Positions 8,778 through 46,684 of a stretch of 64,000 nucleotides of DNA are shown piece by piece. The notes beneath the pieces were generated by a model. The model saw only the letters and a list, made by a program, of their open reading frames with translations, was not told the origin of the DNA and made no database searches. The stretch covers positions 1,069,501 to 1,133,500 of the forward strand of contig NZ_AP028679.1 of NCBI RefSeq assembly GCF_037076455.1, given 5' to 3'. Numbering within the stretch: position 1 is the stretch's first letter; every line of letters starts with the position of its first letter. A program made the position numbers and the translations under genes. Source of the DNA: Desulfoferula mesophila (GTDB taxonomy: Bacteria > Desulfobacterota > Desulfarculia > Desulfarculales > Desulfarculaceae).

Positions 8778-8792
8778 GGTAGTTATACTAAT

Positions 8793-8820
8793 AGGGGCAA
8801 GCTTTAAGTTTGCCCCTGTT
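8793..8820 (+). terminator. Hairpin after tRNA fragment
   Basis: AGGGGCAA (8793-8800) pairs with TTGCCCCT (8810-8817), followed by a weak T-rich run. Its position 25 bases after the CCA suggests a former tRNA terminator. Confidence 0.5.
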
Positions 8821-8892
8821 AATTTCACGTAAGCGTAGCGTAAGCATTAGGCGCAATCTTACCCATCTTGCGCTTTGGAAATTGCCAACTAA

Positions 8893-9038: not shown

Positions 9039-9048
9039 GCACTGGAGG

Positions 9049-9124
9049 TCACCCCGAATTAGATCCAGCCAATAGGTGAGGGCTTGGCTCTTTTGGAGAT
9101 CCTCCGGTTGGGGTTTTGGACAGG
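9049..9124 (-). pseudogene. IS3-family orfB 3' tail, distal piece
   Basis: If the IS21-family element (9125-11651) and one copy of its target duplication are removed, the minus-strand frame at 11761-11657 continues here as HLSKTPTGGSPKEP and ends with a stop at 9049-9051. The final TPTGG-rich tail is typical of IS3-family OrfB ends. This is the second half of a transposase tail split by the IS21 insertion. Confidence 0.65.
9120..9124. repeat. Target-site duplication (left), ACAGG
   Basis: ACAGG directly outside the left IS21-family terminus is repeated at 11652-11656 directly outside the right terminus. Confidence 0.8.
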
Positions 9125-9226
9125 TGTGAATGGCGGAGTAAGTGCGGGACAGTTGGCGGTCTAAAACCGTGACACTTGTTTTAGAGATATAGTCCTGTTG
9201 TTCATGCTGTCAATCATGATCTTGCC

Positions 9227-10003
9227 TTAGTTGGTTTTGGGCTTTGCCTGGGATCGTCTTTTGGCTTGGCGGAGCCGGTAGCTTTCTCCATTGGCCTCGA
9301 TGATGTGGCACCTATGGGTCAGTCTGTCCAGCAGTGCACCGGTGAGTCTTTCGGAGCCGAAGACCTCCGTCCATTGCTGGAAAGGGAGATTGGTGGTGAT
9401 CATGAGGCTTTGTTGTTCATATGCCCTACCCACCACCTCGAATAGCATTTGAGCGCCTATCTTGGAGAAGGGCACATAGCCCAGTTCATCGATGACCAGC
9501 AGGTGTAGGCGCTGGAGCTGTTTCTGCAGGCGTTGCAGACGTCTTTCCTCGCGGCATTCCATGAGCTCTGTGACCAGGGCGGTGGCGCTGTAGAATTTCA
9601 CCTTGCTTCCCTGGGCGCAGGCCGCAAAGGCCATGGCGCTGGCCAGCTGGGTCTTGCCGGTGCCGGAGTTTCCGATCAGGAGCACGTTTTCCTTTTTGGC
9701 GATGTACTCGCCCCTCATCAGCTCCCTGACCAGCTGCTGATTGATGGAGGGCTGTGCCTTGAAATCAAAGGTGTCCATGGTCTTGATCACCGGAAAGGCG
9801 GCTTGCTTGATGCGCCTTTCGGCTGCCCGCTTCTCGCGGTCCAGAAGCTCCCGCTCGGTCAGGCGCAGCAGGTAGGTCATGTAATCGGAGCGGTCTTGGC
9901 TGCAGACCTTGGCCATGGCCGCGTATTCCCGGAGAATGGTGGGCAGCTTCAGCTTTTTGAGGTGGTACTCCAAGAGCACGGTGGGTTTGTCCTGGTCCTT
10001 CAT
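9227..10003 (-). CDS. istB: IS21-family helper ATPase IstB
   Basis: The 258-residue AAA+ ATPase has Walker A GNSGTGKTQLA and Walker B LLVIDELGYVPFS, followed by the sensor-like MITTNLPFQQW. In the IS21 family IstB binds target DNA and activates the transposase. Its ATG overlaps the istA stop by four bases (ATGA), giving translational coupling. Length is normal for the family and the frame is intact, so the element is probably active. Confidence 0.95.
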   Translation of the reverse strand: MKDQDKPTVLLEYHLKKLKLPTILREYAAMAKVCSQDRSDYMTYLLRLTERELLDREKRAAERRIKQAAFPVIKTMDTFDFKAQPSINQQLVRELMRGEYIAKKENVLLIGNSGTGKTQLASAMAFAACAQGSKVKFYSATALVTELMECREERRLQRLQKQLQRLHLLVIDELGYVPFSKIGAQMLFEVVGRAYEQQSLMITTNLPFQQWTEVFGSERLTGALLDRLTHRCHIIEANGESYRLRQAKRRSQAKPKTN

Positions 10004-11499
10004 GACAGCGCCCCTCCCTGCGCGAGGAGGGAGTCATAGACTGTGATATCGGGCCCGGCCACGCTCACTCGGCCCAGGTGCTCACGACCGTCCAGCAGGA
10101 AGGTGGCCGCGGGCCCTGATGATGGCGGCTCCAGCAGGTGGACAATGGCCTCCGGGGCATAGGCTCCCGCGTACAATGCCTGCTCCACCGCCCGCTTCAG
10201 TCTGGCCATGGAGTGGTCCTCCAGCAAACGTAGGACCTTTATGTATTTACGGGTGCCCTGGCCAGGCATGTCTTCCCCGGCCACCAGCCGCCGCCTCAAG
10301 ACCTCAAAGCACTCAGACAGATCTAGGTCAGCCAGGGGGCGGGCGTGGTCCAGGGAGCCAGGCTTGCGCTCCAGCAAGGGCAGATAATGCCGGTAGTCGA
10401 AAAACACCCCTTCCTTGCCCCAGGATCGGGAGTGGCGGGCCACCACCACGTCATGGTGGCAGAGCACCACCCGATCCACATAGCCCTTGGCCACAATTTC
10501 ATGGTGGGCACAAGCCACCGGCACCGAGTAGTCATTGTCGTCGAAGCGGACCAGGGACAATGAATTGGCCCGGGTAGGCTGTTTGCGGCAGGCATCGAAG
10601 CGGGAGGGAGGCAGGGGGACAAAGGCTGTCTGGTCTTCCTGCAAAACCTCGGCCTTGCTACCGCCCTTGCCACGCAAACGGCGCTTCATGTCGTCGCGGC
10701 ACTGCCTTAAAAGCATGGCATTGAGCTCGGCCAGGTCCTTCACCTGGGGCACTGGCACCAAAAAATTCTGCCGGGCGTACTTGACCACCCCTTCCACCAC
10801 GCCCTTCTCGTTTGGACGCCGCACCCGACAAAAATGCTCCCGAAAAAGGTAATGGCTCTGCAGCTTGAGAAAACCATCGGTCAGCTTGCGCTCATGAGGC
10901 CCTATGATCTTGGAAACCAGGACCTTGCTATTGTCGTAACTGATCCGGTGGGGCACCCCACCGAAAAACTCGAACGCCCTGGCATGCCCTTCCCAGTAGC
11001 TCTCGCTGCACTCCTTGTCGAAGGCCGCCACGAAAAAGGCATCGGAGTACGGCAAGGCCATGATAAAAAGCGCTATCTTGCGAAGCTCCCCGGAAACCTT
11101 GGCCAGGGCATAGCCAAAGTCCACCTGCGCCTCGCCGGGACGATGGACCAGGGGCATGTACACCTCCTGGCTCACGCGCTTGATTGCGCGCACCGCCTCC
11201 TTTACCTGGGTGTACTTGCCCTGATAACCCGCCTCCTTGATGCGGTGATATATGCGCGTGGCCGTGTGCCTTTGCTTCTTGGGAACCTTTTTGTCCTCTT
11301 TTATGATCCGGGCGATCAGCTCAAGGTAGGGGCCAAGCTTGGGCTTGGCTCGGGGGACACTCAGTCGGTAACCGGGAGGCTCAGAATAATCCTGAATCTT
11401 TTGCAGGGTATCCCAATGGATGCCCTCTCTACGCATTAACTCGCGCTTGCTCGCCTGGCCATCGCGCAACTCAAGTCTGATCCGGGCCCATTGATCCAT
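10000..11499 (-). CDS. istA: IS21-family transposase IstA
   Basis: The ~499-residue DDE transposase has an N-terminal HTH region (SKRELMRREGIHWDTLQKI) and an RNase H-like catalytic core. Likely catalytic Asp residues are in GEAQVDFGYA and RISYDNSKVLV, and the Glu in RRPNEKGVVEGVV. A beta-barrel-like C-terminal segment follows (SRFDACRK..., NDYSVPVACAH). ATG at 11499 gives the usual family length; the frame is open upstream to 11562 but runs into the terminal repeat region. It acts with IstB, which follows directly. Confidence 0.93.
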   Translation of the reverse strand: MDQWARIRLELRDGQASKRELMRREGIHWDTLQKIQDYSEPPGYRLSVPRAKPKLGPYLELIARIIKEDKKVPKKQRHTATRIYHRIKEAGYQGKYTQVKEAVRAIKRVSQEVYMPLVHRPGEAQVDFGYALAKVSGELRKIALFIMALPYSDAFFVAAFDKECSESYWEGHARAFEFFGGVPHRISYDNSKVLVSKIIGPHERKLTDGFLKLQSHYLFREHFCRVRRPNEKGVVEGVVKYARQNFLVPVPQVKDLAELNAMLLRQCRDDMKRRLRGKGGSKAEVLQEDQTAFVPLPPSRFDACRKQPTRANSLSLVRFDDNDYSVPVACAHHEIVAKGYVDRVVLCHHDVVVARHSRSWGKEGVFFDYRHYLPLLERKPGSLDHARPLADLDLSECFEVLRRRLVAGEDMPGQGTRKYIKVLRLLEDHSMARLKRAVEQALYAGAYAPEAIVHLLEPPSSGPAATFLLDGREHLGRVSVAGPDITVYDSLLAQGGALS

Positions 11500-30593: not shown

Positions 30594-30956
30594 ATGAGCC
30601 AGAGTGAAGCAGTGGAAGACAAGGTCCGGGAGATCAGGCGTAAAACCCGAAGGAAGTACTCGGCGGAGGAGAAGATCCGGATCGTCTTGGAGGGTCTTAG
30701 GGGCGAGGAGAGCATCGCCGAACTCTGTCGCCGAGAGGGCATAGCCCCCAATCTCTACTACAGCTGGAGCAAGGAGTTTCTGGAGGCTGGCAAGCGGCGC
30801 CTGATGGGCGACACCAAGCGTCAGGCCACCAGCGGCGAGGTGCGGTCCTTGCGTCTGGAAAACAGCCAGCTCAAGGAACTGGTGGCTGATCTGTCCCTGA
30901 AGAACGTGGTGCTTAAAAAAAGCTTGGCTGGCACGGGCGAAGATCTGGATCAGTGA
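30594..30956 (+). CDS. IS3-family transposase OrfA
   Basis: The 120-residue protein has an HTH (KYSAEEKIRIVLEGLRGEES and IAELCRREGIAPNLYYSW) and a C-terminal leucine-zipper-like coiled coil (LRLENSQLKELVADLSLKNV). It binds the element's inverted ends. AAAGGAG lies ahead of the ATG at 30594. The stop overlaps the orfB start by four bases. In IS3 elements a -1 frameshift usually yields a fused OrfAB; here the overlap is short, so coupling is also possible. Confidence 0.92.
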   Translation: MSQSEAVEDKVREIRRKTRRKYSAEEKIRIVLEGLRGEESIAELCRREGIAPNLYYSWSKEFLEAGKRRLMGDTKRQATSGEVRSLRLENSQLKELVADLSLKNVVLKKSLAGTGEDLDQ

Positions 30957-31984
30957 TGCGCTTCAGCCAAGCTGAGAAGATGGAGATCATCCGGCTGGTG
31001 GAGGGGTCGTCCCTGCCGGTGAAGCAGACGCTGCGCGAGATGGACGTGCCGCGCAGCTCCTTCTACCGCTGGTATCGACGATATCTGGATTATGGCTACG
31101 ATGGCCTGGCCAGCCAGCCTCCCCATGCCAGGAGATTCTGGAACAAGATCCCTGAGAGCGAGAAGAAGCATATTGTTTCAGAGGCCAAGCAGATGCCTGA
31201 GCTCACCCCCCGAGAGCTGGCCTGGCACATCACCGACAGCCAGGGGGCCTTCATCAGCGAGTCCAGCGTCTATCGCATCTTGAGGGACTATGACCTGGTG
31301 GCCAGTCCGGCCTATATCGTGCTCACGGCCGCCGATGAGTATAGGCACAAGACCAAACGGGTGCACCAGCTTTGGCAGACCGACTTCACCTATTTCAAGA
31401 TCATCGGCTGGGGCTGGTACTACCTGTCCACGATCCTGGATGACTACAGCCGCTATATCATCGCCTGGCTTCTGACCAGCACCATGTCGGCGGAGGACGT
31501 GAAGAACACTCTGGACTTGGCCATCACCAAGACCGGGATTACCGGGGTCAAGGTCCGGCACCGGCCGCGGCTGCTATCGGACAACGGGCCCTGCTACCTG
31601 GCCGGGGACCTGAAGCAGTACCTGGACCAGCATGGCATCAGACACACCAGGGGCAAGCCCTACCACCCCATGACTCAGGGCAAGATCGAGCGATACCACC
31701 GGACATTGAAAAATCGGATCAACCTTGAGAACTACTACCTGCCCTGGGAACTAGAGCACCAGATAGGCCGCTTCGTGGATTATTACAACCACCGTCGGGT
31801 GCACGAGTCCCTGGACAACCTGACACCCGCTGACGTGTATCACGGCAGGGTCAGGGATATCATCACAGCCAGAAACCTGGTCAAGGAACAGACTATGCGG
31901 CGCAGGAGGCGCCAAAACCTGGGACTGAAGCCCTTAAACGAAGAGATTATTAAACCCGAGGTCTACCGGGAATGTCTCCATTAG
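30953..31984 (+). CDS. IS3-family transposase OrfB (DDE catalytic)
   Basis: The 343-residue integrase-core transposase has an N-terminal HTH (LPVKQTLREMDVPRSSFYRW) and an RNase H-like core. The catalytic triad appears as Asp in LWQTDFTYF, Asp in LLSDNGPCYL and Glu in GKIERYHRTLK. The C-terminal DYYNHRRVHESLDNLTPADV is characteristic of the family. It is full length, so the element may still move. Confidence 0.94.
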   Translation: MMRFSQAEKMEIIRLVEGSSLPVKQTLREMDVPRSSFYRWYRRYLDYGYDGLASQPPHARRFWNKIPESEKKHIVSEAKQMPELTPRELAWHITDSQGAFISESSVYRILRDYDLVASPAYIVLTAADEYRHKTKRVHQLWQTDFTYFKIIGWGWYYLSTILDDYSRYIIAWLLTSTMSAEDVKNTLDLAITKTGITGVKVRHRPRLLSDNGPCYLAGDLKQYLDQHGIRHTRGKPYHPMTQGKIERYHRTLKNRINLENYYLPWELEHQIGRFVDYYNHRRVHESLDNLTPADVYHGRVRDIITARNLVKEQTMRRRRRQNLGLKPLNEEIIKPEVYRECLH

Positions 31985-32016
31985 CAAAAACCAATTCTTG
32001 TCCCAAACGCTTTGAC

Positions 32017-32405
32017 GACATACATTTGCGCCGCTCGCGGTATTTGGGATAAGTCACCGCTACCCCCACCAGGGACAAGGTGTTGCGTTCGCGTCCGGCG
32101 TTGAAATGGCAGTTGCGGCAGTTCAGGGTGTTGCCCACGTATTCCTTGGCGTAGGTCTGGGTGTCCATGAGGATGTGGTAGCCCAGCATGACCCCGTCGC
32201 GGATGCTCTCCGGCGCGTCTTCGGGGCGGGGCGGATCGAACACCACCTGGGAGGCCCGCACCGCCTCGCCGGGAGCTTGGTTGTTTTCCATGACCCTGGG
32301 CGCGGGGAAGTTGCCCATGGAACTGAACAGCCAGTAGAAACCCGTGGCCACCAGCACCAGGACCAGGGTTAGCGCCAGAGAGAGAGATAACCGGTGGGTA
32401 CGCAA
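32017..32405 (-). pseudogene. Membrane-anchored cytochrome c, 3' end lost to IS
   Basis: From a TTG start at 32405 (GGAG seven bases upstream) the frame encodes an N-terminal membrane anchor (LSLSLALTLVLVLVATGFYW), a ~60-residue linker and a heme-binding CRNCH within TLNCRNCHFNAG. The following VGVAVTYPKYRER resembles the first heme domain of TsdA/SoxX-type diheme cytochromes. The right end of the IS3-family element at 32016 removes the rest, including any second heme site and the axial Met region. It is almost certainly non-functional. Confidence 0.75.
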
Positions 32406-32788
32406 GGGCGCGCTCCTTCCAATGTCTGCGAGAACTCCTGCAACAAACACGGATCGTTCGGCGCAAGCACGAAGGAATTCGCCTTGGCGTCGGTGGCCTG
32501 TTTGCAAATTCAGTATGAAGGATCGGGAGAGCTGATGGTACCCCCAAACCTTGAGTTTCCCCTACCACAACCATATAAATTGATTGGCTTTTTCCTGAAT
32601 ATAACCCTACTGGGAAAGTAGCGTTTCGCGCCCGTTGGCCCGATTTGGTCCGGGCCCACTCCAAGAAGTGGTACATTAATTACCAATCGGCCATCATGCA
32701 GGTGGCCTGGGCGGCCAGTAGCGGCAGAGCCAGGGGCAAGGCCGGAGCGCGCCGTCTGCGTAGGAACGCGAAAATAGGGGATATTGCT
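32406..32788. other. Intergenic region, no gene seen
   Basis: Between the divergent truncated cytochrome gene and the DUF362 gene. A plus-strand frame from 32645 is open but its first 48 codons (Arg/Ala-rich) lack conservation features; I treat it as untranslated. No RNA or promoter is recognised. Confidence 0.4.
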
Positions 32789-33766
32789 TTGAGTTTGGTT
32801 ACATTGTGCAAAAATCATGAGCGGGCTTACGGCGTCCAGGCCGTGATCGGGGCCATGGGTTGGGACGAGGCCGCCAACCCCATCCGGGGCCAACAGGTTC
32901 TGTTGAAACCCAATCTCAACACCGCGGACCCGGCGCCCGGCTCCACGGACAACGCCACCTTGGAGGCGCTCATCGACGAGTTGTGGCGCCTGGGGGCCAA
33001 GTCCATAACCCTGGGCGAGCGCAGCTGGAAGACGACCCGCCAGGTGGTGGCCGAGAAGAACCTGGAGCCGCTGCTAAAGGCCAAGCAAGTGGAGCTGGTG
33101 ATTTTCGATGATCTGCCGGAAAGCGGTTGGGCGCAGATAAAAGCCCCTGGCCACCATTGGCCCGGGGGATTTCTGGTGCCCCGAGCCCTGCTGGAGTCCG
33201 AGTGCGTGGTGGAGACCTGCTGCCTCAAGACCCATGCCTATGGCGGCGTTTTCACCATGTCCCTGAAGCTGGCGGTGGGCTTTGTGCCGGGCCGGGAGCA
33301 GAACCCGATCTACATGAACTCCCTGCATTCCTCCCCGCATCAGCGGGAGATGATCGCCGAGATCAACACGGCCTTCACCCCCGCCCTGGTGGTGTTGGAC
33401 GGCGTGGACGCCTTTGTGGACGGGGGGCCCATGACCGGCGAACTGGCCGCGGGCGACGTCATGCTGGCCTCCGGCGACCGGGTGGCCATCGACGCGGTGG
33501 GCCTGGCCTGCCTAAAGCAGCTGGGCGCCAACAAGGCCATCAGCAAGCCGGCCATCTTCGATCAGGACCAGATAAGACGGGCGATCGAGTTGGGGCTGGG
33601 GGTGAAAAGCGCCCGGGAGATAGAGCTGGCGGCCGCCGACGAGGCCAGCCGGGACTACGCCGCGGCCATAGGGGAGATATTGCTGGACAACGAGGCCCGC
33701 GGCGCCTCGGGAGCCGCGTCCAAGCTGCGCGAGTTCACCGCCAATCTTTTGAAGAACGGGCGTTAG
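32789..33766 (+). CDS. DUF362-family protein
   Basis: The ~325-residue product has the DUF362 pattern: QQVLLKPNLNTADPAPGSTD near the N-terminus, GAKSITLGERS, then ESECVVETCCLKTHAYGGVF, MSLKLAVGFVPG and VLDGVDAFVDGGPMTGE. The family has no firmly known reaction; some members carry ferredoxin domains, this one does not. The start is taken as TTG at 32789, with GGGG eight bases upstream and family homology beginning there; the frame is open to 32645. The flippase gene follows 104 bases later on the same strand. Confidence 0.78.
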   Translation: MSLVTLCKNHERAYGVQAVIGAMGWDEAANPIRGQQVLLKPNLNTADPAPGSTDNATLEALIDELWRLGAKSITLGERSWKTTRQVVAEKNLEPLLKAKQVELVIFDDLPESGWAQIKAPGHHWPGGFLVPRALLESECVVETCCLKTHAYGGVFTMSLKLAVGFVPGREQNPIYMNSLHSSPHQREMIAEINTAFTPALVVLDGVDAFVDGGPMTGELAAGDVMLASGDRVAIDAVGLACLKQLGANKAISKPAIFDQDQIRRAIELGLGVKSAREIELAAADEASRDYAAAIGEILLDNEARGASGAASKLREFTANLLKNGR

Positions 33767-33870: not shown

Positions 33871-35196
33871 GTGCCGGGGCCTCGCCTAGTCGGGGAAGTG
33901 TGGCGCAGTCCCAAGGCCCGCCGGGCGGCGGCCAATTCCGGTTGGCTGCTGGCGGCCACGGTGGTGGCCCGTCTATCCGGCCTGGCGGTGGCCGTGGTCT
34001 TGGCCCGGGTGCTGGGCCCCGAAGAATACGGGGTCTGGGGCATGGCCCTGGCCGTGGTGGCCCTGCTGTCGGGCCTGGCCGGGGGGGGCATAGCCCAGGT
34101 GGTGGTCAAGGAGTTGGTTCGCCGTCCCGAGAGGGAGCCGCAAATCCTGGGCAGCGCCTTGCTGATCCGCCTGGCGCTTTTCCTGCCGGCCCTGGCCGCG
34201 GCCCTGGTGGCCCCCCACTTGCCCGGCCTGAACCAGGCGGGGCTGGGCCTGGTCGTCACGCTATTGGCCCTGGCCTGGCTGCCCCAGTCGTTTAGCGGGG
34301 TCACCGGCGCCCTCTTCCAGAGCCGCCTGCAGGACCGGCTCAACTTCCAGGCGGGCTTCCTGGCCACCGTGGGGGAGGCCTTGGGCAAGTGCCTGGCCGC
34401 TCTCGCCGGGGCTGGCCTGTGGGTCGTGGCTGCGGTCCATAGCCTGGCCAGCCTGGTGCGGGCAGTGCTGGCCCTGCGCCTTTTGCCCGGCGGTTGGCGC
34501 CAGACGCGGGAATGGCGGGTGGAATCGGAGGTGACGCGGCACCTGTGGAGCGAGACCTGGCCCATTATTTTCTGGTCGAGCATGGTGGCCGTGTATACCA
34601 GCATCGACCAATTGATGCTAGGCTACCTGGTGGGGCCCTCCTCCACCGGGCAATATCTGGCCGCCGTGCGCCTGGCAAGGGTCTGGTTGATGCTCCCGCC
34701 CTTGATTCTGCCTTCCCTGTTCCCTTACCTGGTGAAGCTAAGAGAGGAGAACCAGGCGCTCTATGAACAGCGTTTCGCGCAGATTTACTGGTTCTTCACC
34801 TGGTCGGCCATTCTCATCTCGATTTTGGTCAGCCTCCCGGCGGATGGCTTGATAACCCTGATTTTCGGCCCGCAATACGCCGGCAGCGGTACGATGTTGG
34901 CCATCCTGGTCTGGGGCAACGTGTTCAGCTTTCAGGGCCTGGCCCGGGGCCAGTGGCTGATCGCCGAGGGGCTGCAACGCTACTCCATCTATTACGCCGC
35001 CATCGGGGCTCTGACCAACGTGGGGGCCAACCTGTTTTTGATTCCCCTATGGGGCGGGGTGGGGGCGGCATGGGCCACCCTGCTTTCCCTGGTGTGCTCA
35101 ATCCTGCTGGGCCCGCTCTTGTTCACGCCCACCCGGCCATCCTCCCTCATGCTGCTGCGCTCCTACCTTCCCTATCGGCGGGGCTTGCTGGGCTGA
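33871..35196 (+). CDS. Wzx-type oligosaccharide flippase / MATE-like exporter
   Basis: The 441-residue integral membrane protein has ~12 predicted helices and the family signature near the N-terminus: SGWLLAATVVARLSGLAVAV, then LARVLGPEEYGVWGMALAVV. Such proteins flip lipid-linked glycans across the inner membrane. The start is GTG at 33871, five bases after GGGAGG. It converges on the HPr-kinase-like gene with only 16 bases between stops. No glycosyltransferase is nearby, so its substrate is open; a link to the adjacent peptide system is speculative. Confidence 0.85.
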   Translation: MPGPRLVGEVWRSPKARRAAANSGWLLAATVVARLSGLAVAVVLARVLGPEEYGVWGMALAVVALLSGLAGGGIAQVVVKELVRRPEREPQILGSALLIRLALFLPALAAALVAPHLPGLNQAGLGLVVTLLALAWLPQSFSGVTGALFQSRLQDRLNFQAGFLATVGEALGKCLAALAGAGLWVVAAVHSLASLVRAVLALRLLPGGWRQTREWRVESEVTRHLWSETWPIIFWSSMVAVYTSIDQLMLGYLVGPSSTGQYLAAVRLARVWLMLPPLILPSLFPYLVKLREENQALYEQRFAQIYWFFTWSAILISILVSLPADGLITLIFGPQYAGSGTMLAILVWGNVFSFQGLARGQWLIAEGLQRYSIYYAAIGALTNVGANLFLIPLWGGVGAAWATLLSLVCSILLGPLLFTPTRPSSLMLLRSYLPYRRGLLG

Positions 35197-35212: not shown

Positions 35213-36226
35213 CTAGAGTTGGCCGGCCAACTCCTGGAAGGCGGCCACCGCGCGAGCGGGGTCGGTGCCCACGCCTACCGCGTAGCAGGGAACGGCCTTG
35301 AGCAGATCCATGAGAAACTCGAACACCAGCCTGGTCTCTTCCGGCTGTTGCAGGGGCATGGTCACCGGAAAGAGGCCGGAGACCGCCGCGGCCTTGGGCA
35401 GGGGCGCCCAGGTGGTCGGGACCTGGCCGGTTTGGTGCAGGCAGCAGAGGGCCGATACCGGAGCGCGGTCCTGAAAGGGCAGGGAGGAGAGGCTCAGCTT
35501 GAAGTACAGATCCCCGGCGTGCTCGCAGAGGGCCTCCCGGGCCTTCAGCCCAGGCACGAAGCGCTCCAGGGTGGGGCGGCTCACCTTTACCACGTCGCTG
35601 AGGGTGGCGGCCTGGTAGCGTTGCCCGCCAACGGCTTGCAGGAAAATGCGCTCGTCGGTGAGCAGGGGATGGCCGCCCTGGCCCAGGATCAGGCTGGCGG
35701 TGGATTTGCCGCCGCCGGATTTAGCCGAGAGCAACAGGCCCTTGCCGCCCACCACCGCGCAGCCGGCGTGCACCGGGATCAGTCCCTTGGCCCGGAGGAA
35801 ACCGGAGAGGGCGATAACCGCGAATAGGTAGCGCAAGGGAAGGTGGTCACCAAAGGCCCGGGGAGTGAGCACCGCCTGGTAGCGACTGTCTTCCAGATTC
35901 CAATACTGCCTGCCCAGGCCGTGGAACTGGCGCCACCAGGCCTGGCCCCGGCCCAGGAAGCGGGTCTCCGGGTAGGATTCCTCCCCCAGAAGCAGGTTGA
36001 TGCCATTTTCAGCCGAGGCGCTCGGGTCGATGGGCAGCACCCGGTCAAAGTCCTTTTCCTCGGCCAACTCGAAGGAGCAATGCAGGGGCTTTTCGCCGGT
36101 TGGCGCAGTATCCGCGGACCGGGGGGCCAAGAGCCCGACAATCCCCTCGCGCACCTCTGGGGTGGAGCTGTGGATGACCAGGCTTTGTCCCTGGAAGGTG
36201 TAGGTGTCAACAATCGGTGAGGGCAA
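35213..36226 (-). CDS. HPr-kinase-like protein of a peptide-modification cluster
   Basis: The 337-residue protein has a C-terminal P-loop domain related to HPr kinase: a His-containing strand (LIPVHAGCAVVGG, His153), Walker A SAKSGGGKST (167-176) and acidic LLTDERIFL. The N-terminal ~130 residues are the variable part found in HprK-related proteins beside lasso-type B2 and PqqD genes. Some relatives phosphorylate a Ser near the C-terminus of lasso precursors; here every nearby precursor has such a Ser. It overlaps the B2-like gene by 20 bases, last in the order radical SAM - PqqD - B2 - kinase. Substrate is inferred only from context. Confidence 0.82.
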   Translation of the reverse strand: MPSPIVDTYTFQGQSLVIHSSTPEVREGIVGLLAPRSADTAPTGEKPLHCSFELAEEKDFDRVLPIDPSASAENGINLLLGEESYPETRFLGRGQAWWRQFHGLGRQYWNLEDSRYQAVLTPRAFGDHLPLRYLFAVIALSGFLRAKGLIPVHAGCAVVGGKGLLLSAKSGGGKSTASLILGQGGHPLLTDERIFLQAVGGQRYQAATLSDVVKVSRPTLERFVPGLKAREALCEHAGDLYFKLSLSSLPFQDRAPVSALCCLHQTGQVPTTWAPLPKAAAVSGLFPVTMPLQQPEETRLVFEFLMDLLKAVPCYAVGVGTDPARAVAAFQELAGQL

Positions 36227-36731
36227 TCGGGTGATCCATTTCGGGCTGTGAATGAAAGTCGAGGCCGCCCCGGGTATCGGCGGTGATCATGGGCCGGTAG
36301 CGCTTCAGGCCTTGGATATCCTCGAAAAGGGGCTCCCCCGCCAACTCGATCCAACTATGGCCTTGTAAGTCCTGGCCTTGTTTGGCCACGCCGATCACCA
36401 AGTTGGCTTGAATGCCTTTTTGACGGCACCAGGCGAACAAATACAGGCAACGTCTCAGGCAGGGGCGGGAAGAAAAAAACAGGTAATTCAGGCACAGGGT
36501 GCACAGGCGCCAGAGACGCCCCAGTTGCCGCCGCTCCTCCACAGTGGGTGGATGAAACGCCGCCCCGGCGGGACGTTCCAGCCGCCGCCGTAGCATGGCA
36601 GGCACTGGGGTGCGCAAAAGAAACAGGGAGAGGGAGTCCAGGCCCAGGCGCAAGGCGATAACCGGCACTCGCCACGCCCCGCGCAGCAGCACCAGTCTGG
36701 ACTCTATGGGCGGGGCAGGCTCCTCGGGCAT
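36207..36731 (-). CDS. Lasso-B2-like transglutaminase-fold protease
   Basis: The 174-residue protein has the layout of lasso peptide B2 proteins. A papain/transglutaminase-like triad is visible as Cys91 in PCLRRCLYLF, His125 in GHSWIELAG and Asp138 in PLFEDI, with NLVIGVAKQG between. B2 proteins cut the leader from a precursor delivered by the B1/PqqD-like partner. It starts directly after the PqqD-like stop and overlaps the kinase-like gene. No asparagine-synthetase-like lasso cyclase is present, so after cleavage the peptide would not be lassoed by the usual enzyme. Confidence 0.87.
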   Translation of the reverse strand: MPEEPAPPIESRLVLLRGAWRVPVIALRLGLDSLSLFLLRTPVPAMLRRRLERPAGAAFHPPTVEERRQLGRLWRLCTLCLNYLFFSSRPCLRRCLYLFAWCRQKGIQANLVIGVAKQGQDLQGHSWIELAGEPLFEDIQGLKRYRPMITADTRGGLDFHSQPEMDHPIALTDC

Positions 36732-37010
36732 TTATTCCCTGGTTTCCAACAGTCCCTTACGGGACATCTCCTGGGCCAGATCCCCTATGTCCTGCTTGAG
36801 CACCGTCAGCTGCACGTCGTACTCCTCGAACATCATCTCCAGGATCTTGCTCAGCGGCCGAGCTCCGTCCACTTTTTCCCAAAACGACAGACCGGTGTCG
36901 TTGAGGCTGAAATAGTCCCCGTTCTTAATGTTGAGCAACACGGCCTCGCCGTCGAGCTCGGACCAGATGAATTCCTCATTCTTGCGATAGATGGGGTCAC
37001 TCTCGCTCAT
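36732..37010 (-). CDS. PqqD-like RiPP recognition protein (B1-like)
   Basis: The 92-residue winged-helix domain of the PqqD/RRE type has IYRKNEEFIWSELDGEAVLL, then NIKNGDYFSLNDTGLSFWEK, followed by helices. These proteins bind the leader of a ribosomally made peptide; in lasso systems they recognise a YxxPx[L] motif, and the five nearby precursors carry YxKPx[L/V]. The start at 37010 has GGAGGT just upstream and overlaps the radical SAM gene by 14 bases, implying coupled translation. The open frame reaches 37022, but GGAGGT lies within it. Confidence 0.9.
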   Translation of the reverse strand: MSESDPIYRKNEEFIWSELDGEAVLLNIKNGDYFSLNDTGLSFWEKVDGARPLSKILEMMFEEYDVQLTVLKQDIGDLAQEMSRKGLLETRE

Positions 37011-38442
37011 CACTACCTCCACCGATTTTCCGCGCCAGGGACAGCGCTCGATTTCGCACCCTCTGGACGGTCAGTCCGGCCAAGGCAAGGGGAGGGTTGG
37101 CTTTTATTTGACAAATCCTTCTCTGTCGGGCCATCAGGGGCCTGGCCCTTTTTTGCAACCATTCTTCCAAATCAGCGAGACTTACGGAACTCAAATTTCG
37201 CCGGTAATAGTCATGCACCGCTTGGCGGTCATCCCAGGGGTTGTCCTCGAAAAACGAGTCCCCGTATTGCTCGTACAGGGGAGTGCCCGGGAATACATGC
37301 AGTTTAACCCAAAAAAAGTTGGAAGGCCGATACTTGCGAACCCATGCTTCACTGGCATGGAGGTCGGCCAAGGTCTCTCCCGGCAATCCCCTCATCAAGT
37401 AGGCATGGGAGTATATACCCACCTCGCGGCATAGCCCCAAGGCTTTTTGGGCCGCTTCCACCGGTATGGTCTTGTCCATTGCCCTTAAATGATCCTGGTT
37501 GGGAGTCTCCACCCCAAACTCCAACGAGGTGCAGCCCGCCTTTTTCATCAGTCCAAGCAGACCGCCCTCCACGCAATCGGCCCGGACCTGAGCGGACCAA
37601 AGCAATCGACGGTGCAAGTTCCTTTCCAGCAGCATTTCACAAAAGCGCGCGCATCGCCGCCGGTCCACCAGGAAGTTGCAGTCCCGCAAATAGATCGCAT
37701 CTAAGTTGTAGTCTCGCAAACAACGCTCGACATCTTCCAGCACTAATTCAAGGCTGCGAAAGCGCAACCCCGGTCCGTAGTCCCTGGATTCAAGGCAATA
37801 GGCGCATCTGCCCGTGCATCCCCTCGAAGTCATGAGAGTAAGAGAGGACAGGTAGTGGCACCAGATGGTGTCGGTGCCACGCATGGCGTAATAGCCCGTG
37901 TCCATCAGGTGAAATGCGGGGAATGGCAACAAATCCATATCAATGGGAGACGACCTGCGCGAAGGGGGACGCGCCTCATCGCCATCGCGCAGCCAAACTC
38001 CGCTGGCCGAGGACCAATCGCCTGAGACCAATTGCGCCAGGGGGATCTCCGCCTCACCCTCGATCAACAAGTCTATCTGAGGAATTTTTTGAAAGGCCAG
38101 GGCGGGCAGGGCCGTGGCGTGGGCGCCAAAAATCCCCAGGGGGGCGTCGTGGAGCGCCTTGATGTCGCGGGCGCAGTGGCAGGTGTCATATATGGATTCC
38201 GGGTTGGCCTCGATCAGCACCAAATCGGGCTTGAACGAACTCACCAGGGAGAGCATTGCCTGGTGGGTGCCGGCCAAAGATTGCCCGCCGCGATGGCTGT
38301 GCGCCAGGCGGTCGAAAACCCTAACCGTGCAGCCTGTGTTTTCCAAAACAGCGGCCGCGGAGGCGATGAATAAAGGCGTCCAGGTGTTTTTGTTGGGGCC
38401 TATCCGGCTGTCGTTGGGGCTTACGATTAAAACTTTGGGCAT
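36997..38442 (-). CDS. B12-binding-domain radical SAM enzyme
   Basis: The 481-residue protein has an N-terminal Rossmann-like B12-binding domain (MPKVLIVSPNDSRIGPNKNT; VFDRLAHS; LVLIEANPESIY; GIFGAHATALP) and a radical SAM core with the cluster-binding SRGCTGRCAYC (CxxxCxxC). Conserved FGVETPNQDHLRAMDK and SHAYLMRGLPGET follow. Relatives include methylases and ring-forming enzymes acting on peptides, lipids and tetrapyrroles. ATG at 38442 is preferred: homology begins there and GGAAG lies upstream. It is first in a tightly coupled set with PqqD, B2 and kinase genes, and divergent from five precursor genes, so a peptide substrate is the best inference; the reaction is unknown. Confidence 0.85.
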   Translation of the reverse strand: MPKVLIVSPNDSRIGPNKNTWTPLFIASAAAVLENTGCTVRVFDRLAHSHRGGQSLAGTHQAMLSLVSSFKPDLVLIEANPESIYDTCHCARDIKALHDAPLGIFGAHATALPALAFQKIPQIDLLIEGEAEIPLAQLVSGDWSSASGVWLRDGDEARPPSRRSSPIDMDLLPFPAFHLMDTGYYAMRGTDTIWCHYLSSLTLMTSRGCTGRCAYCLESRDYGPGLRFRSLELVLEDVERCLRDYNLDAIYLRDCNFLVDRRRCARFCEMLLERNLHRRLLWSAQVRADCVEGGLLGLMKKAGCTSLEFGVETPNQDHLRAMDKTIPVEAAQKALGLCREVGIYSHAYLMRGLPGETLADLHASEAWVRKYRPSNFFWVKLHVFPGTPLYEQYGDSFFEDNPWDDRQAVHDYYRRNLSSVSLADLEEWLQKRARPLMARQRRICQIKANPPLALAGLTVQRVRNRALSLARKIGGGSDERE

Positions 38443-38632
38443 TGCATACTTCCGCTGATACCAACAAAGCCGGCACCAATTATTTTCAATCGTTAAAAAA
38501 ATTATAATATATTTTACCAAACAATTAAATTATAGTAAGTTGATAAAATATGGTAAAAGCGAGGTGTCGGGAAGGCGGTCAAATTTGGACACGTCTGGAT
38601 CGACTGGTGCATGAACTTAGGGATGAAAACGG
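38443..38632. promoter_or_regulatory. AT-rich divergent promoter region of the peptide cluster
   Basis: A sharply AT-rich stretch (38485-38555) separates the modification genes (minus) from the precursor genes (plus). TATAAT-like hexamers occur on both strands (ATTATAATATAT near 38500-38513; TATAGT near 38532). An inverted repeat TTTTACCA (38512-38519) / TGGTAAAA (38551-38558) could be an operator serving both directions. Confidence 0.5.
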
Positions 38633-38728
38633 ATGAATGTCAAAAAGGAATATGTGAAACCGAAGGTTGTGGCTCACAAAAGCTTGGGGGACATAACCGC
38701 GTTAGAGCCGCCTTCCGCAGTAGGCTAG
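38633..38728 (+). CDS. Candidate RiPP precursor peptide 1 (divergent)
   Basis: A 31-residue peptide beginning MNVKKEYVKPKVVAHKSLGD. It keeps the KKxYxKPx[VL]xxH leader of the other four but diverges after LGDIT, ending in ALEPPSAVG. AGGG lies ~11 bases upstream, a modest ribosome site. It is nearest to the divergent promoter. Being the least conserved, it may be a decaying or specialised member. A longer frame in another phase (38611-38814) has no ribosome site and is not conserved. Confidence 0.6.
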   Translation: MNVKKEYVKPKVVAHKSLGDITALEPPSAVG

Positions 38729-38821
38729 CTCCAAGAATGTGCAATGCCCGGGCGCGGTCAGGGGCTGCGCCTGCGGGTTCATGGTTCGCGAATAAATCCG
38801 CTTGCAGAGGATGACAGGGCG

Positions 38822-38914
38822 ATGAGTAAAAAGGCATACCAAAAGCCGAAGCTGACCCAGTGCCAGAGTCTGCAAAAGCTCACGGGTGGTCTCAGAGCCT
38901 CGGAAGAGTTTTGA
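38822..38914 (+). CDS. Candidate RiPP precursor peptide 2
   Basis: A 30-residue peptide starting MSKKAYQKPKLTQCQSLQ, with leader motif YQKPKL and boundary LQKLTGG, followed by the tail LRASEEF. It holds the only Cys in the five-member family (TQCQS). Same strand and spacing as its neighbours, ~100 bases apart. The tail carries a Ser and two Glu, residues that could be phosphorylated or joined in a side-chain bond; this is inference. Confidence 0.7.
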   Translation: MSKKAYQKPKLTQCQSLQKLTGGLRASEEF

Positions 38915-39021
38915 AAACGTCATCCGGGCACTAGGGGCGGCAACAAAGGTGGATGCGGGGTGGCCCGCGTGACGGCCGCAAGCTCGACGTAAACGTTACA
39001 CAAGCAGTTGGTGGTGATCAA

Positions 39022-39117
39022 ATGGCTGATAAGAAGACTTACGAAAAGCCCGAATTGAAGGCCCATCAAAACCTGCGGCAGGTCACCGGCGGCGCTCCCG
39101 CCTCTGACCAGACTTGA
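39022..39117 (+). CDS. Candidate RiPP precursor peptide 3
   Basis: A 31-residue peptide starting MADKKTYEKPELKAHQNL, with motif YEKPEL, boundary LRQVTGG and tail APASDQT. GGTG precedes the ATG at 39022. The match to peptides 4 and 5 through LRQVTGG, with a variable tail, is the usual leader/core pattern. The conserved Thr two residues before the putative cut site recalls lasso precursors (Thr at -2). Confidence 0.75.
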   Translation: MADKKTYEKPELKAHQNLRQVTGGAPASDQT

Positions 39118-39233
39118 GCGGCTTTACCACCAAAGGCTCGATAAGGACGGCGGAACCGTTGAGTTGGCTCCCTGCTGGCTCAGGGCCCCAAATGTCGGCA
39201 ACACACCTCATGCAAAGCAAGCGCGGAAGACGG

Positions 39234-39329
39234 ATGAGCGAAAAAAAAGCCTATAAAAAGCCCGAACTCACGGCCGGTCAAAACCTGCGCCAGGTTACCG
39301 GCGGTCTGTTGTCCTCGCGGGAAGATTGA
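39234..39329 (+). CDS. Candidate RiPP precursor peptide 4
   Basis: A 31-residue peptide starting MSEKKAYKKPELTAGQNL, with motif YKKPEL, boundary LRQVTGG and tail LLSSRED. GGAAG lies four bases before the ATG at 39234. If cut before the second Gly, the core would be GLLSSRED, with acidic residues at positions 7 and 8, the positions used for macrolactam closure in lasso peptides, but no tail would remain to thread. Confidence 0.75.
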   Translation: MSEKKAYKKPELTAGQNLRQVTGGLLSSRED

Positions 39330-39431
39330 GCGGGACGCAGGAGGGCTGCCCGGATTATGGATGGAGCCCGGCCGTGACCATAGCGGCTTGACCCCATTGG
39401 CAAACCGTTTAATAGAGCGAGGAGACGGCAA

Positions 39432-39527
39432 ATGGCCCCCAAGAAAGCCTATGAAAAACCCGAAGTGGTGGCTCACCCCAACCTGCGGCAGGTGACCAGT
39501 GGCGACCTTTCCTCCCAGGACACTTAA
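39432..39527 (+). CDS. Candidate RiPP precursor peptide 5
   Basis: A 31-residue peptide starting MAPKKAYEKPEVVAHPNL, with motif YEKPEV, boundary LRQVTSG and tail DLSSQDT. GAGGAG lies upstream of the ATG at 39432. Last of the series; no further copy is found in the next 450 bases. Confidence 0.75.
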   Translation: MAPKKAYEKPEVVAHPNLRQVTSGDLSSQDT

Positions 39528-42652: not shown

Positions 42653-43930
42653 TTACATGCAGCCCATGCCTCCGCCCGAGCCCATCTTCTCGGCGCAGCA
42701 GGCCTTGCCCTTGCGGATGCGGAAGGCCGAAAGGTCGTCGCCCGCATAGATAGCCTTCAAGGTCTCCTCGATGAAACCGCTGACCTCCAGGGGCTCCACC
42801 CCGTAGCCGCTGAGCACCGCCCGCGGGGTTTCGCCGATGCCGCTGACGAGCACGTGGCGGCAATCGCTCAGCGTCTCGGCCAGTTTTTTCCAGCGCAGCT
42901 CGCCGCCGCCCGCCTCCGGCGCGGGCCGCACCTCCAAGAGGCTGAAGCCGCCGGGGATGGGCCCCCAGATCTGGAACTCGGGGGCCTGGCCCAGGTGCAG
43001 ATTGACCAAGGTGCCTTCCCGGGTGGCCACGGCCACGTAGGGGTGCGACACCTCCTTGGGCTCGGGCAGCTTGGTGCAGGAAGACAGGCAGCCGCCCATT
43101 TCCCGGGAGCGGTCCTGGCCCAGCAGACCCACGGCGTCGGCCCGGCAGCGGGTGCAGTGGGACATCTGGTTGAGATAGGGGGCGCAGTCGCTCCTGAGCT
43201 GCTGCATCAGCTCGCGGCTGGGCTCGCCCAGGGCCTCGAAGACGGTGTTGGGGGTGGGGAACATGGGCATCAGGTTCATGAGGTCCGCGCCCAGCTCGGA
43301 GGCCCAGCGGGCCACCTCGGTCATGTGCCCATCGTTGATGGTGGGGATGACAATGCTGTTGATCTTCACGGTGATGCCGCGCTCCTTGAGCCCGGCCACC
43401 GCCTGGGTTTGGCGCTCCAAGAGCAGGCGGGCCGCTTCCTCGCCCCGGTAGGCCACCTTGCCCTCCTTGACCCAGGAGTAGATCTTGGCCCCGATGGCCG
43501 GGTCCACCGCGTTCACGGTGATGGTCATGTGGGTCACCCCGGAGTCGGCCAGGGCGTCCAGATGCTCGGGCACGGCCAGGCCGTTGGAGGACAGGCACAA
43601 CAGGGTGCCGGGAAAGCGCTCGCCGATCAGGCGCATGGTCTGTAGGGTCTTGGCCGCGTTGGCCATGGGATCGCCTGGTCCGGCGATGCCCGCCACGCTG
43701 ATGCGCGGCTCGGCGGCCACCACCCGGGCGAAATATTCCTGGGCCTGGCGGGGAGCCAGCACCGCGCTGGTCACGCCGGGGCGCGACTCGTTGACGCATG
43801 AATACTTGCGGTCGCAGTAGTTGCACTTGATGTTGCAGGCCGGGGCCACCGGCAGGTGCACCCGTCCGTGGCTGCCCTTGGCTCCCCGGTTGAAACAGGG
43901 ATGATTTTCGCTGTTGTTGGGTATGCTCAT
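42653..43930 (-). CDS. nifB: FeMo-cofactor biosynthesis radical SAM protein NifB
   Basis: The 425-residue NifB makes the NifB-co (8Fe-9S-C) core of the nitrogenase cofactor. The radical SAM cluster motif is CNIKCNYC in a HGRVHLPVAP context; other conserved parts are GIAGPGDPMAN, LCLSSNGLAVPEH and the later Cys of CTRCRADAVGLLG. Residues ~300-400 are a NifX/NafY-like cofactor-binding domain (YVAVATREGTLVNLHLGQAP). The tail ends Cys/Gly-rich (CCAEKMGSGGGMGCM). Last gene of the operon, 10 bases after nifN, with a strong terminator beyond. Confidence 0.95.
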   Translation of the reverse strand: MSIPNNSENHPCFNRGAKGSHGRVHLPVAPACNIKCNYCDRKYSCVNESRPGVTSAVLAPRQAQEYFARVVAAEPRISVAGIAGPGDPMANAAKTLQTMRLIGERFPGTLLCLSSNGLAVPEHLDALADSGVTHMTITVNAVDPAIGAKIYSWVKEGKVAYRGEEAARLLLERQTQAVAGLKERGITVKINSIVIPTINDGHMTEVARWASELGADLMNLMPMFPTPNTVFEALGEPSRELMQQLRSDCAPYLNQMSHCTRCRADAVGLLGQDRSREMGGCLSSCTKLPEPKEVSHPYVAVATREGTLVNLHLGQAPEFQIWGPIPGGFSLLEVRPAPEAGGGELRWKKLAETLSDCRHVLVSGIGETPRAVLSGYGVEPLEVSGFIEETLKAIYAGDDLSAFRIRKGKACCAEKMGSGGGMGCM

Positions 43931-43940
43931 GATCTTGCCC

Positions 43941-45317
43941 CTATAGGTATCCGTAGCCCACGTTGCTCTCGCTCTGCTTCTGCTCCAGCAGGGCGTTGAC
44001 GATGCGGTCGTACATCTCCTGGGCGCCGCGGTAGCCCAGGTGGTGCAGGCGCGGCCCGCCGAAGCGGTCGTGGATGGGGAAGCCCACCCGCACCAGGGGA
44101 ACGCCCAACTCCCGGGCGATGAGGTAGCCCTTGGAGTGGCCCAGCAGGAAGTCCGGTTTGAGCTCGCGGCTCAGCTCGGCGATGCGGTAGAAGTCCACGC
44201 CTGGCTCGGCGTGGACCGTCTCGCGCACCAGGCCCTCGGTGACCCGCTCCAGGTTCTCCCGGAAACCGGCGCCGCGCCCGCCGCTGGCGCACAGCACCGG
44301 CTGCACCCCGATTTCGGCCAGGAAGGAGGCCAGGCCGATGACCAGGTCCTGCTCGCCATAGACCACCGCCCGCTTGCCCGAGAGGTACTTGTGGCCGTCC
44401 ACCATGGCGTCCAGCAGGCGGCCGCGTTGATCGGCGTGCCGCGAGGGAATCTCGCGCTTGGCGAGCGCGGCCAGGGCCTCGAACATGGCGTCGCTCTGGC
44501 GCAGGCCGATGGGCAGGCCCAGGTCGTGGAGTGCCACGCCGCAGCGCTCCTGCAGGTCGCGGCCCGCCGCCTGGGAATAAGGGGTCCAGCCGAAGGACAG
44601 GGTGGCCGCCGCGCCGCCCATCTTGGCGATGTCGGCCAGGGGGGTGCCCCCGCCGGGCAGAATCTCGTAGCTGGTGCCGGCCGGGGCATCCAGGGGCCGC
44701 GAGTAGTCGGGCAGCAGGGTGGCCTTGAGGCCGAAGCCCTTGGCCACTTCCTGCAGATGGCGGATGTCGGCCGGGCTCACGAAGCCGGGCAGCAGGTTGA
44801 TTCCGCTGTGGCGGGCCACCGGATGGGCCAGCTGGCGCACGATGGCGTCCACCGCCGCGTGGAAGCCCTCGGCGTGGGTGGCCGCGTAGGAGGGGGTGGA
44901 GGCGTGGATCAGGGCGGGCATCTTGCCGCCCGGGCCTTCCACCTTGGCCGCGTCCAGGAACTCCTTGACGATGGCGGGCACGTTGTCGCCGATGGTCTCG
45001 GTGAGGCAGGTGGTGGCGATGCCCACCGCCTTGGCCTGGTACTTGTTGATGACGTTGACCAGGCCCTGCTTCAGGTTGGGGCCGCCGCCGAACACGGCCT
45101 CGCCCTCGCCCAGGGCGCTGGAGGCGATGTCCACCGGCTCGCGAAAGTGGCTGATCAGATAGCGGCGCATGTAGGTGGCGCAGCCCTGGGAGCCGTGCAA
45201 AAAGGGCACGCAGCCCTCAACTCCCTTGAAGGCTATGCTGGCCCCCAGGGGCATGCAGGCCTTGCAGGCGTTGGTGCTGGAAACGTAGTCGCGCTTTTCG
45301 GCCAAGTTGCTTTTCAT
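43941..45317 (-). CDS. nifN: Nitrogenase cofactor scaffold NifN
   Basis: The 458-residue NifN is the NifK-like half of the NifEN scaffold. N-terminal cluster ligands are in NACKACMPLGA and CVPFLHGSQGCATYMRRYLI; TTCLTETIGDNVP is the usual nitrogenase-family signature. ATG at 45317 overlaps the nifE stop by four bases (ATGA), so NifE and NifN should be made in equal amounts; the same frame stays open far upstream within nifE but only as an artefact. Confidence 0.95.
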   Translation of the reverse strand: MKSNLAEKRDYVSSTNACKACMPLGASIAFKGVEGCVPFLHGSQGCATYMRRYLISHFREPVDIASSALGEGEAVFGGGPNLKQGLVNVINKYQAKAVGIATTCLTETIGDNVPAIVKEFLDAAKVEGPGGKMPALIHASTPSYAATHAEGFHAAVDAIVRQLAHPVARHSGINLLPGFVSPADIRHLQEVAKGFGLKATLLPDYSRPLDAPAGTSYEILPGGGTPLADIAKMGGAAATLSFGWTPYSQAAGRDLQERCGVALHDLGLPIGLRQSDAMFEALAALAKREIPSRHADQRGRLLDAMVDGHKYLSGKRAVVYGEQDLVIGLASFLAEIGVQPVLCASGGRGAGFRENLERVTEGLVRETVHAEPGVDFYRIAELSRELKPDFLLGHSKGYLIARELGVPLVRVGFPIHDRFGGPRLHHLGYRGAQEMYDRIVNALLEQKQSESNVGYGYL

Positions 45318-46684
45318 GCCGCCACCTCCTCCAGCCGGGGCAGGGTGCGGCGCGGCGTGAAGCGCCACACCGGGCTCATCACCGTGGCGTGAATCTCCTC
45401 GGCGAAGTTGAGCATGCCCACAAAGCCCTCCAGGGCCAGCTTGCGTTCGTGGTTGTGGTCGCAAAAACCGATGCCCAGCTTGTGGGCGATGGGCCGTTCC
45501 TTGACCCCGCCCACGAAAACGTCCACGTCCTTTTCGATGAGGCAGTGCATCAGCTCCAGGGGGTTGGCGTCGTCCACGATGATGGTGCCGGGCTCGCAGA
45601 TGGAGGCCAGCTCCTCGTAGTCCTCCTGGGTCCCGGTCTGGGAGCCGGCCAGCACCACCTTCATGCCCAGCAGGCGGAATGACTTGATGAGGCTGAAGGC
45701 CTTGAAGGCTCCGCCCACGTACAGGGCGGCCCGCTTGCCTTCCAAATCCTTGCGCAGGCGCTTGAGGCGGGGGTAGATGCGCCCCAGCTCCTCGCTGACG
45801 ATCTCTTTGGCCCGCTCCATGGCCTGGGCGTCCCCAAAGAACTCGGCCACGTCGTACAGGGCTTGGGCCATGTCGTCGGCCCCCAGGTAGCTCACCCGCA
45901 TGAAGGGCGTGCCGTAGGTCTCCTTCATCATCTTGGCCAGCTCCATGGTGGAGCCCGAGCACTGCACCAGGTTGAGCGCCGCACCGTGGGCCCGGCGCAC
46001 GTCGGCCACCCGGCCGTCGCCGGTGATGTTGGCCACCACGCTCACCCCCATGCGCTCCAGGTATTCCCGAATGATCCAGATCTCGCCGGCCAGGTTGAAG
46101 TCGCCCAGCAGGTTCACTGACATGGGGGGGATGCCCTCGGTGTCGCCGGTGCCCACCAGGCGGAACATGGCCTCGCAGGCCGCGTAGTAACCGGCGCGCT
46201 TGTTGCCCTTGAAGCCCTCGCTCATCACCGGGATCACCGGGATGCCGTGGCGCTCCGTGGCCTTTTTGCACACCGCCTCCATGTCGTCGCCGATGAGCCC
46301 CACCATGCAGGTGGAGTAGACAAAGGCCGCCTTGGGCTGGTGCAGGGGGATCAGCTCGTCCAGGGCCCGGGTGAGCTTGGCCTCGCCGCCGAAGATCACG
46401 TCGGTTTCGCCCAGGTCGGTGCTGAAGGAGTAGCGGTGCAGCTCCGGCCCGGAGGAGAGGGCCCCGCGGATGTCCCAGGTGTAGGTGGCGCAGCCGATGG
46501 GGCCGTGGATCAGGTGCAGGGCGTCGGCGATGGGGTAGAGCACCACCCGGGAGCCGCAGAACACGCAAGCCCGCTGGCTCACCGCCCCGGCCAGGCTTTG
46601 CTTGTCGCAGCTTATGCGAAAGGGCTTGTCCGTGCCCGTTTCAAAAAACTGATCCTTGCGCTCTTCGAAAACCATCTGGGACAT
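45314..46684 (-). CDS. nifE: Nitrogenase cofactor scaffold NifE
   Basis: The 456-residue NifE is NifD-like. P-cluster-like Cys are in RACVFCGSR, HGPIGCATYTWD and STCMVGLIGDD; VQCSGSTMELAKMMKETYGT replaces the FeMo-co Cys/Arg region of NifD. With NifN it holds the cofactor precursor while Mo and homocitrate are added. It begins 10 bases after the GNAT gene. Confidence 0.95.
   Translation of the reverse strand: MSQMVFEERKDQFFETGTDKPFRISCDKQSLAGAVSQRACVFCGSRVVLYPIADALHLIHGPIGCATYTWDIRGALSSGPELHRYSFSTDLGETDVIFGGEAKLTRALDELIPLHQPKAAFVYSTCMVGLIGDDMEAVCKKATERHGIPVIPVMSEGFKGNKRAGYYAACEAMFRLVGTGDTEGIPPMSVNLLGDFNLAGEIWIIREYLERMGVSVVANITGDGRVADVRRAHGAALNLVQCSGSTMELAKMMKETYGTPFMRVSYLGADDMAQALYDVAEFFGDAQAMERAKEIVSEELGRIYPRLKRLRKDLEGKRAALYVGGAFKAFSLIKSFRLLGMKVVLAGSQTGTQEDYEELASICEPGTIIVDDANPLELMHCLIEKDVDVFVGGVKERPIAHKLGIGFCDHNHERKLALEGFVGMLNFAEEIHATVMSPVWRFTPRRTLPRLEEVAA

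Follow-up and report, generated by a model that had tools for sequence, protein, structure and literature searches.

The window analysed here is a stretch of 64,000 nt of Desulfoferula mesophila (NZ_AP028679.1, assembly GCF_037076455.1, positions 1,069,501 to 1,133,500), and coordinates are positions in it unless another locus is named. It contains a set of four minus-strand genes (35213-38442), divergent from five small plus-strand genes (38633-39527). An earlier, sequence-only reading had described both groups. The five small genes with YxKPx[L/V] are confirmed as ORFs, and so are the coupled starts of the minus-strand set, as adjoining genes overlap or abut, with the radical SAM gene overlapping the PqqD gene. 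The identities it had given to the four enzymes (B12-radical SAM, PqqD-like, B2-like and HprK-like) have HMM support, with matches below cut-off for HprK and for the B12-binding domain of the window protein.

Table 1. Genes of the cassette and its immediate surroundings in the window
Feature	Position	Strand	Remarks
DUF362 protein, doubtful member	32696..33766	+	related to cassette DUF362s, closest to lone housekeeping DUF362s
Wzx-type polysaccharide flippase	33871-35196	+	between DUF362 gene and kinase
HprK-like serine kinase	35213..36226	-	P-loop; distant HMM relative
Lasso B2-like cysteine leader peptidase	36207..36731	-	NF033537, PF13471
Discrete RRE, PqqD family, lasso B1-like	36732..37022	-	GTG start at 37022 or ATG at 37010
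B12-binding radical SAM enzyme	36997..38442	-	CxxxCxxC; ATG at 38442 preferred to TTG at 38520
Precursor peptide 1	38633..38728	+	divergent copy; core LEPPSAVG
Precursor peptide 2	38822..38914	+	core GLRASEEF
Precursor peptide 3	39022..39117	+	core GAPASDQT
Precursor peptide 4	39234..39329	+	core GLLSSRED
Precursor peptide 5	39432..39527	+	core GDLSSQDT

The small genes have 30-31 codons and an ATG start in each case, and the five translations are, in order, MNVKKEYVKPKVVAHKSLGDITALEPPSAVG; MSKKAYQKPKLTQCQSLQKLTGGLRASEEF; MADKKTYEKPELKAHQNLRQVTGGAPASDQT; MSEKKAYKKPELTAGQNLRQVTGGLLSSRED; MAPKKAYEKPEVVAHPNLRQVTSGDLSSQDT. YxKPx[L/V] is common to all, with a Thr 15 residues past the Tyr, and the purine-rich stretch 5' of the ATG is clear in some copies and weak in others. 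The LRQVTGG-like boundary that had been proposed is there in copies 2 to 5, being exact as LRQVT[G/S]G in three of the five and LQKLTGG in precursor 2, but precursor 1 (LGDITALEPPSAVG) has no Gly-Gly. The tails, put earlier at 7-8 residues, are indeed variable, with 8 residues past Thr-x in all five. Comparison of the copies with each other gave a pN of 0.29 for the leader against a pS of 0.76, which, together with the presence of the same gene set and peptide type in six other genomes, shows that the small genes are not there by chance.

Those genomes were found in several ways. With the kinase as query, 60 related genomes were searched, which led to G021, of the same class and with the same set, and a scan of the collection with the radical SAM pair to a Candidatus Atribacteria MAG (JAPLGF010000215.1). 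Whole-genome searches with a radical SAM profile led to G091 and, within its class (155 genomes), to G532, G536 and G576. The seven cassettes are those of the window, L009, L012, L043, L053, G536 (L052 and L114) and G576 (L051), and the six further genomes, which have the set with YxKP precursors, are from the same phylum as the window and from Atribacterota. Conservation of the small genes beside homologous enzyme sets had been set beforehand as a test, and it holds in all six. RRE, B2, HprK, DUF362 and radical SAM genes are on a single contig in L009, L012, L043 and L053, while the G536 set is split over two contigs, with the NTP transferase, PqqD and HprK genes on the second (L114). Three of the six are cut by contig ends; the L012 contig begins inside the precursors and that of L051 just 5' of the kinase gene. 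PqqD (PF05402) was not found in the whole G576 genome, and at L051 3-425 the kinase is directly preceded by the C-terminal part of a radical SAM protein of SPASM type; G576 perhaps represents a variant with another recognition scheme. The cassette is absent from seven congeners searched, and a radical SAM match over threshold was found in only 2 of 395 sampled genomes of the phylum, a patchy presence that suggests spread by horizontal transfer.

Several other loci with PqqD genes were considered and set aside. L008 (G000:C1:575001-595000), in the same genome as the window, has a second pair of HprK-like and PqqD-like genes at 8747-10341 with glycosyltransferase-like genes around it, and L010 has at about 9011-10676 a PqqD-like ORF, adjoined by an HprK-like gene, whose C-terminal tail (KLPFKRPVLEKYTDMSDMLLLDPIHEVDETGWPALKKEGK) gives it the look of an RRE joined to a leader or substrate of its own. 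Neither has a matching set of small genes, and we treat them as different systems. L115 and L116 are PqqD loci of other kinds. In L116 a small minus-strand ORF at 7782-8018, with KKYMKPEAVRIY and a Gly/Cys-rich tail, lies close to an HprK-like gene and a tandem pair of PqqD genes, and it is possible that this is another YxKP-led RiPP.

For comparison of the precursors we aligned 33 from the seven loci on the Tyr of YxxP, which is present in all 33 as a consequence of how they were searched for. Every locus has small YxKP-type genes, at most seven (L051, L053) and, in the truncated L012, one or more. Thr is at Tyr+15 in 30 of the 33, and Thr is the penultimate leader residue of lasso precursors (PMC10368454), so the precursors carry a lasso-type leader, [Y/W]xxPx[L/V...] with Thr at -2. 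Matches to lasso-leader HMMs are confined to this leader part and score below cut-off. Within loci the leader has a pN of 0.06-0.39 against a pS of 0.39-0.76, and the core a pN of 0.47-0.69, as expected for a conserved leader under purifying selection followed by a free, hypervariable core. The residues past Thr-x number 5-11 in 29 of the 33. Ser is the sole residue found in every core, usually at position 4-6, and it occurs within the first eight core residues in 33 of 33 precursors. Random redistribution of the pooled residues gives a mean of 25, and none of 20000 shuffles reached 33, although related precursors count as independent in this comparison. None of the 33 cores has a Cys, His, Trp or Tyr among its first eight residues.

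The proteins predicted to read and cut the leader are both of lasso type. The RRE of the window matches PF05402 over cut-off, its best NCBIfam match being lasso_PqqD_Bac at 56.6 bits, under the cut-off of 80. A profile of five RRE sequences matches TbiB1 best (E 5.5e-17), and also PbaB1 (9x90), TfuB1 and LppB (9x8z). LppB belongs to the LPP system (lppAKBSDN; Popov et al. 2026, PMC13381572), cyclase-less RiPPs described from Bacillota that combine a YxxP leader with an RRE and an HprK-like kinase. In LppB the leader Tyr is hydrogen-bonded by D70 and the kink at the Pro is kept in place by N33 (PMC13381572), and the residues equivalent to these by alignment to LppB, D78 and N41, are invariant. 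That the leader is read in the lasso way, as had been proposed, is thus supported, and such reading is predicted from the TbiB1 match and the contact residues. The window B2 protein matches NF033537 at 61 bits (cut-off 33) and also PF13471. A B2 gene is present in six of the seven cassettes, and in all six the protein has invariant Cys91, His125 and Glu137, the acidic residue 12 past the His being Glu; McjB has Asp at that position.

The kinase is more distant from known families. Its HMM matches (PF07475 at 20.6 bits, with ScmC at 25 and HprK_rel_A at 22 bits the best) are all under cut-off, and its best PDB matches are HPr kinases. The P-loop, His153, Lys174 and Asp191 are invariant in six cassettes, and as the fourth motif residue two of them have Asp and four have Glu. 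The His-Lys-Asp-Asp motif of the HprK-like lasso kinases (PMC9266682) is thus present, with Asp or Glu in fourth place. Lasso kinases polyphosphorylate a C-terminal Ser, and PsmN adds a hexose to the phosphate (PMC9266682); the LPP kinase phosphorylates Ser3 of the core several times over, and the leader is cleaved poorly if phosphorylation has not taken place (PMC13381572). By analogy with both, we expect the conserved Ser of the core to be the residue modified by the kinase here. The earlier suggestion of a phosphorylated product thereby gains a predicted target, given a Ser in 33 of 33 cores and retention of the kinase motif. NTP_transf_5-type proteins are encoded in L012, L043, L053 and L114.

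The radical SAM protein of the window matches PF04055 at 60 bits, with a match to the B12-binding domain PF02310 (26 bits) that is under cut-off; in its relative from L053 the latter is 50.7 bits and over cut-off. The cluster cysteines 209, 213 and 216 are invariant in ten sequences. It has the CxxxCxxC motif and N-terminal B12-binding domain of a B12-dependent radical SAM enzyme, and is predicted to bind cobalamin. The structural model (pLDDT 79) has TsrM, AprD4, MgmA, TokK, OxsB and CysS as best Foldseek matches. TsrM and TokK carry out carbon methylation and AprD4 is a dehydratase, so the fold matches set the structural class and not the reaction; our best guess is methylation of a carbon, either in an aliphatic residue or close to the Ser. 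All seven cassettes have a member of one radical SAM clade (530-880 bits to the profile), located beside B2, PqqD, DUF362 or precursor genes. L036, L054 and L055 have close homologues away from any cassette, precursor or RRE, and were rejected as cassettes.

The sequence-only reading passed over a DUF362 protein, the gene for which is present in the six other cassettes, beside the radical SAM or B2 gene. In a tree these six and the partial L107 sequence form one supported clade (100/100). DUF362 has no sequence relative in the PDB. The window also has a DUF362 gene, two genes from the kinase, and we first accepted it as an orthologous member of the cassette, since it is adjacent and its product is 36% identical to that of L009. 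However it is 78% identical to the lone copy of a congener and groups in the tree with lone copies, which are widespread in the phylum, and we now treat it as probably a housekeeping copy. The dedicated DUF362 is then either missing from the window cassette or replaced by this neighbour. Two cassettes, L053 (7079-8017, with PF00551) and L052 (4834-5766), include a formyltransferase-like gene, possibly for an extra tailoring enzyme.

With regard to the surroundings of the window cassette, the adjoining Wzx-type flippase gene recalls the capsule loci around LPP and paeninodin genes. At 30594-31984 two consecutive plus-strand ORFs resemble an IS3-type transposase pair, consistent with a mobile neighbourhood, and beside them at 31950-32507 is a short cytochrome-c-like ORF, possibly disrupted. 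Downstream, on the minus strand at 42653-46684, are NifB/NifE/NifN-like genes with the look of nitrogenase cofactor assembly.

Our main reading is that this is a cyclase-less RiPP cassette built on the lasso B1/B2/kinase module, for linear modified short peptides, and we put its probability at about 0.74. The PqqD-like RRE would bind the YxKPx[L/V] leader, a step that its sequence and the homologous RRE-leader complexes support, and would guide the HprK-like kinase to add at least one phosphate to the conserved Ser, which lies around core position 4-6, as the conservation of that Ser and the tested relatives lead us to expect. In cassettes with an NTP_transf_5 protein a sugar or nucleotide may then be added to the phosphate. 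The B12-radical SAM enzyme, its class set by structure, would change a carbon on the core, most likely by C-methylation of an aliphatic residue or in the neighbourhood of the Ser, with DUF362 as its putative partner in the related cassettes. Finally B2 would cut past Thr(-2)-x(-1) to give a linear modified peptide of 5-10 residues, one enzyme set presumably handling up to seven precursor variants per locus. A cassette with no ring-closing enzyme, and with a kinase and a B12-radical enzyme, probably makes very short peptides modified around the conserved Ser.

The leader, RRE, B2 and kinase are all lasso-like, and one has to ask if this is a lasso cluster with its cyclase encoded elsewhere, particularly as the window's genome does have Asn synthetases, all far from the cassette, and G021 and G576 have full-length ones on contigs other than that of the cassette. 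None of the seven loci has a gene for an asparagine-synthetase cyclase, be it within the window or on a cassette contig, and in the whole genomes of G091, G532, G536 and G441 a full-length Asn synthetase is lacking, with weak partial matches of at most 29 bits; one of the four is estimated to be 100% complete. The cores point the same way, as 25 of 33 lack the D/E at positions 7-9 needed as acceptor (present in the other 8) and are thus unable to form a lasso ring, 14 have no D/E within the first ten residues, and with 29 of 33 at 11 residues or fewer there is not the tail to thread. We reject a cyclase in trans as very improbable, and the earlier statement that no lasso cyclase accompanies these precursors stands.

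Two other explanations keep the peptides linear. Since LPPs work with no radical SAM enzyme, and radical SAM homologues exist away from cassettes, the RRE, kinase and B2 might suffice and the radical SAM gene be a mere neighbour with another substrate. We think this unlikely given that one clade accompanies all seven cassettes and that in the window the gene overlaps that for PqqD. Also unlikely, if slightly less so, is that the peptide is a phospho-relay or regulator tied to cell-envelope polysaccharide, with no released product, as for the HprK/PqqD pairs of exopolysaccharide loci. The adjoining flippase gene, the situation of LPP and paeninodin genes within capsule loci and the genome's second PqqD/HprK pair among glycosyltransferase-like genes all fit such a role, but the hypervariable cores of as many as seven precursors in a locus, the patchy presence of the cassette and a leader peptidase in six of seven speak against it.

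A linear modified product thus remains our preferred reading. The narrower claim of a distinct RiPP class, with ultra-short (5-10-residue) linear peptides, lasso-type leaders, (poly)phosphorylated Ser and modification by B12-radical SAM and DUF362, we make tentatively, at a little under even odds. If true, DUF362 would for the first time have a role in a RiPP pathway and, to judge by present searches, the lasso B1/B2/kinase module would for the first time be combined with a B12-radical SAM step. We found no account of the cassette in the open-licence literature on DUF362 with RiPPs or on lasso/kinase/B12-radical combinations, although absence there is no proof of novelty. The cassette shows the lasso reading-and-cutting module parted from cyclisation outside Bacillota too, and combined with predicted radical chemistry on cores whose first eight positions have none of the Cys, His, Trp and Tyr targeted by many known RiPP radical SAM enzymes. 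DUF362 gains a concrete pathway context, and the natural libraries of up to seven cores per locus could be used to probe the tolerance of the kinase and radical enzyme.

It remains to compare the cassette with known systems. Among NCBIfam models the radical SAM protein matches ApyD best, but its 103 bits are far under the ApyD cut-off of 750, and ApyD pathways are not known to include a lasso-type leader, a B2 or an HprK protein. The SynChlorMet cassette shares the grouping of HprK-like (ScmC), PqqD-like (ScmD) and radical SAM (ScmE) proteins (NCBIfam), but ScmE is of SPASM type and not B12-binding, and the matches to ScmC and ScmD, and to ScmE in the SPASM fragment by the G576 kinase, are weak and far under cut-off. 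The phosphorylated lasso peptides paeninodin and pseudomycoidin (A-C-B1-B2-K-N) have in common with our cassette the RRE (B1), B2, HprK-like kinase, NTP transferase and Thr at -2, but here there is no cyclase C, the cores are too short and mostly have no ring acceptor, and the Ser is internal and not C-terminal.

LPP is the closest known kind. It shares the discrete RRE and HprK-like kinase with no macrolactam cyclase, a single Ser early in the core as kinase target (here predicted), up to several precursors, and an NTP transferase, which is present here in some cassettes only. Of the LPP leader consensus, YxxPxVLxHQxIxFETxxS, only the YxxPx[V/L] part is shared. LPP has a SipW-like signal peptidase, whereas here B2 is present instead and no SpI/SipW-like peptidase was found among the window neighbours scanned (part of the neighbouring genes). 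LPP also encodes an MsbA-like exporter, whereas no dedicated exporter was identified for the cassette; its cores are of 5-10 residues against 45 in the one LPP tested, and it has a B12-radical SAM enzyme and, in six relatives, DUF362. With a cyclase-less, YxxP-led, HprK-phosphorylated family already reported (PMC13381572), the earlier description as a new RiPP system was too strong, but the radical SAM step is new relative to LPP, and the cassette is undescribed in the literature searched. The cassette is real and conserved across two phyla, and is a new combination of known parts among the cyclase-less, lasso-related phosphopeptide RiPPs.
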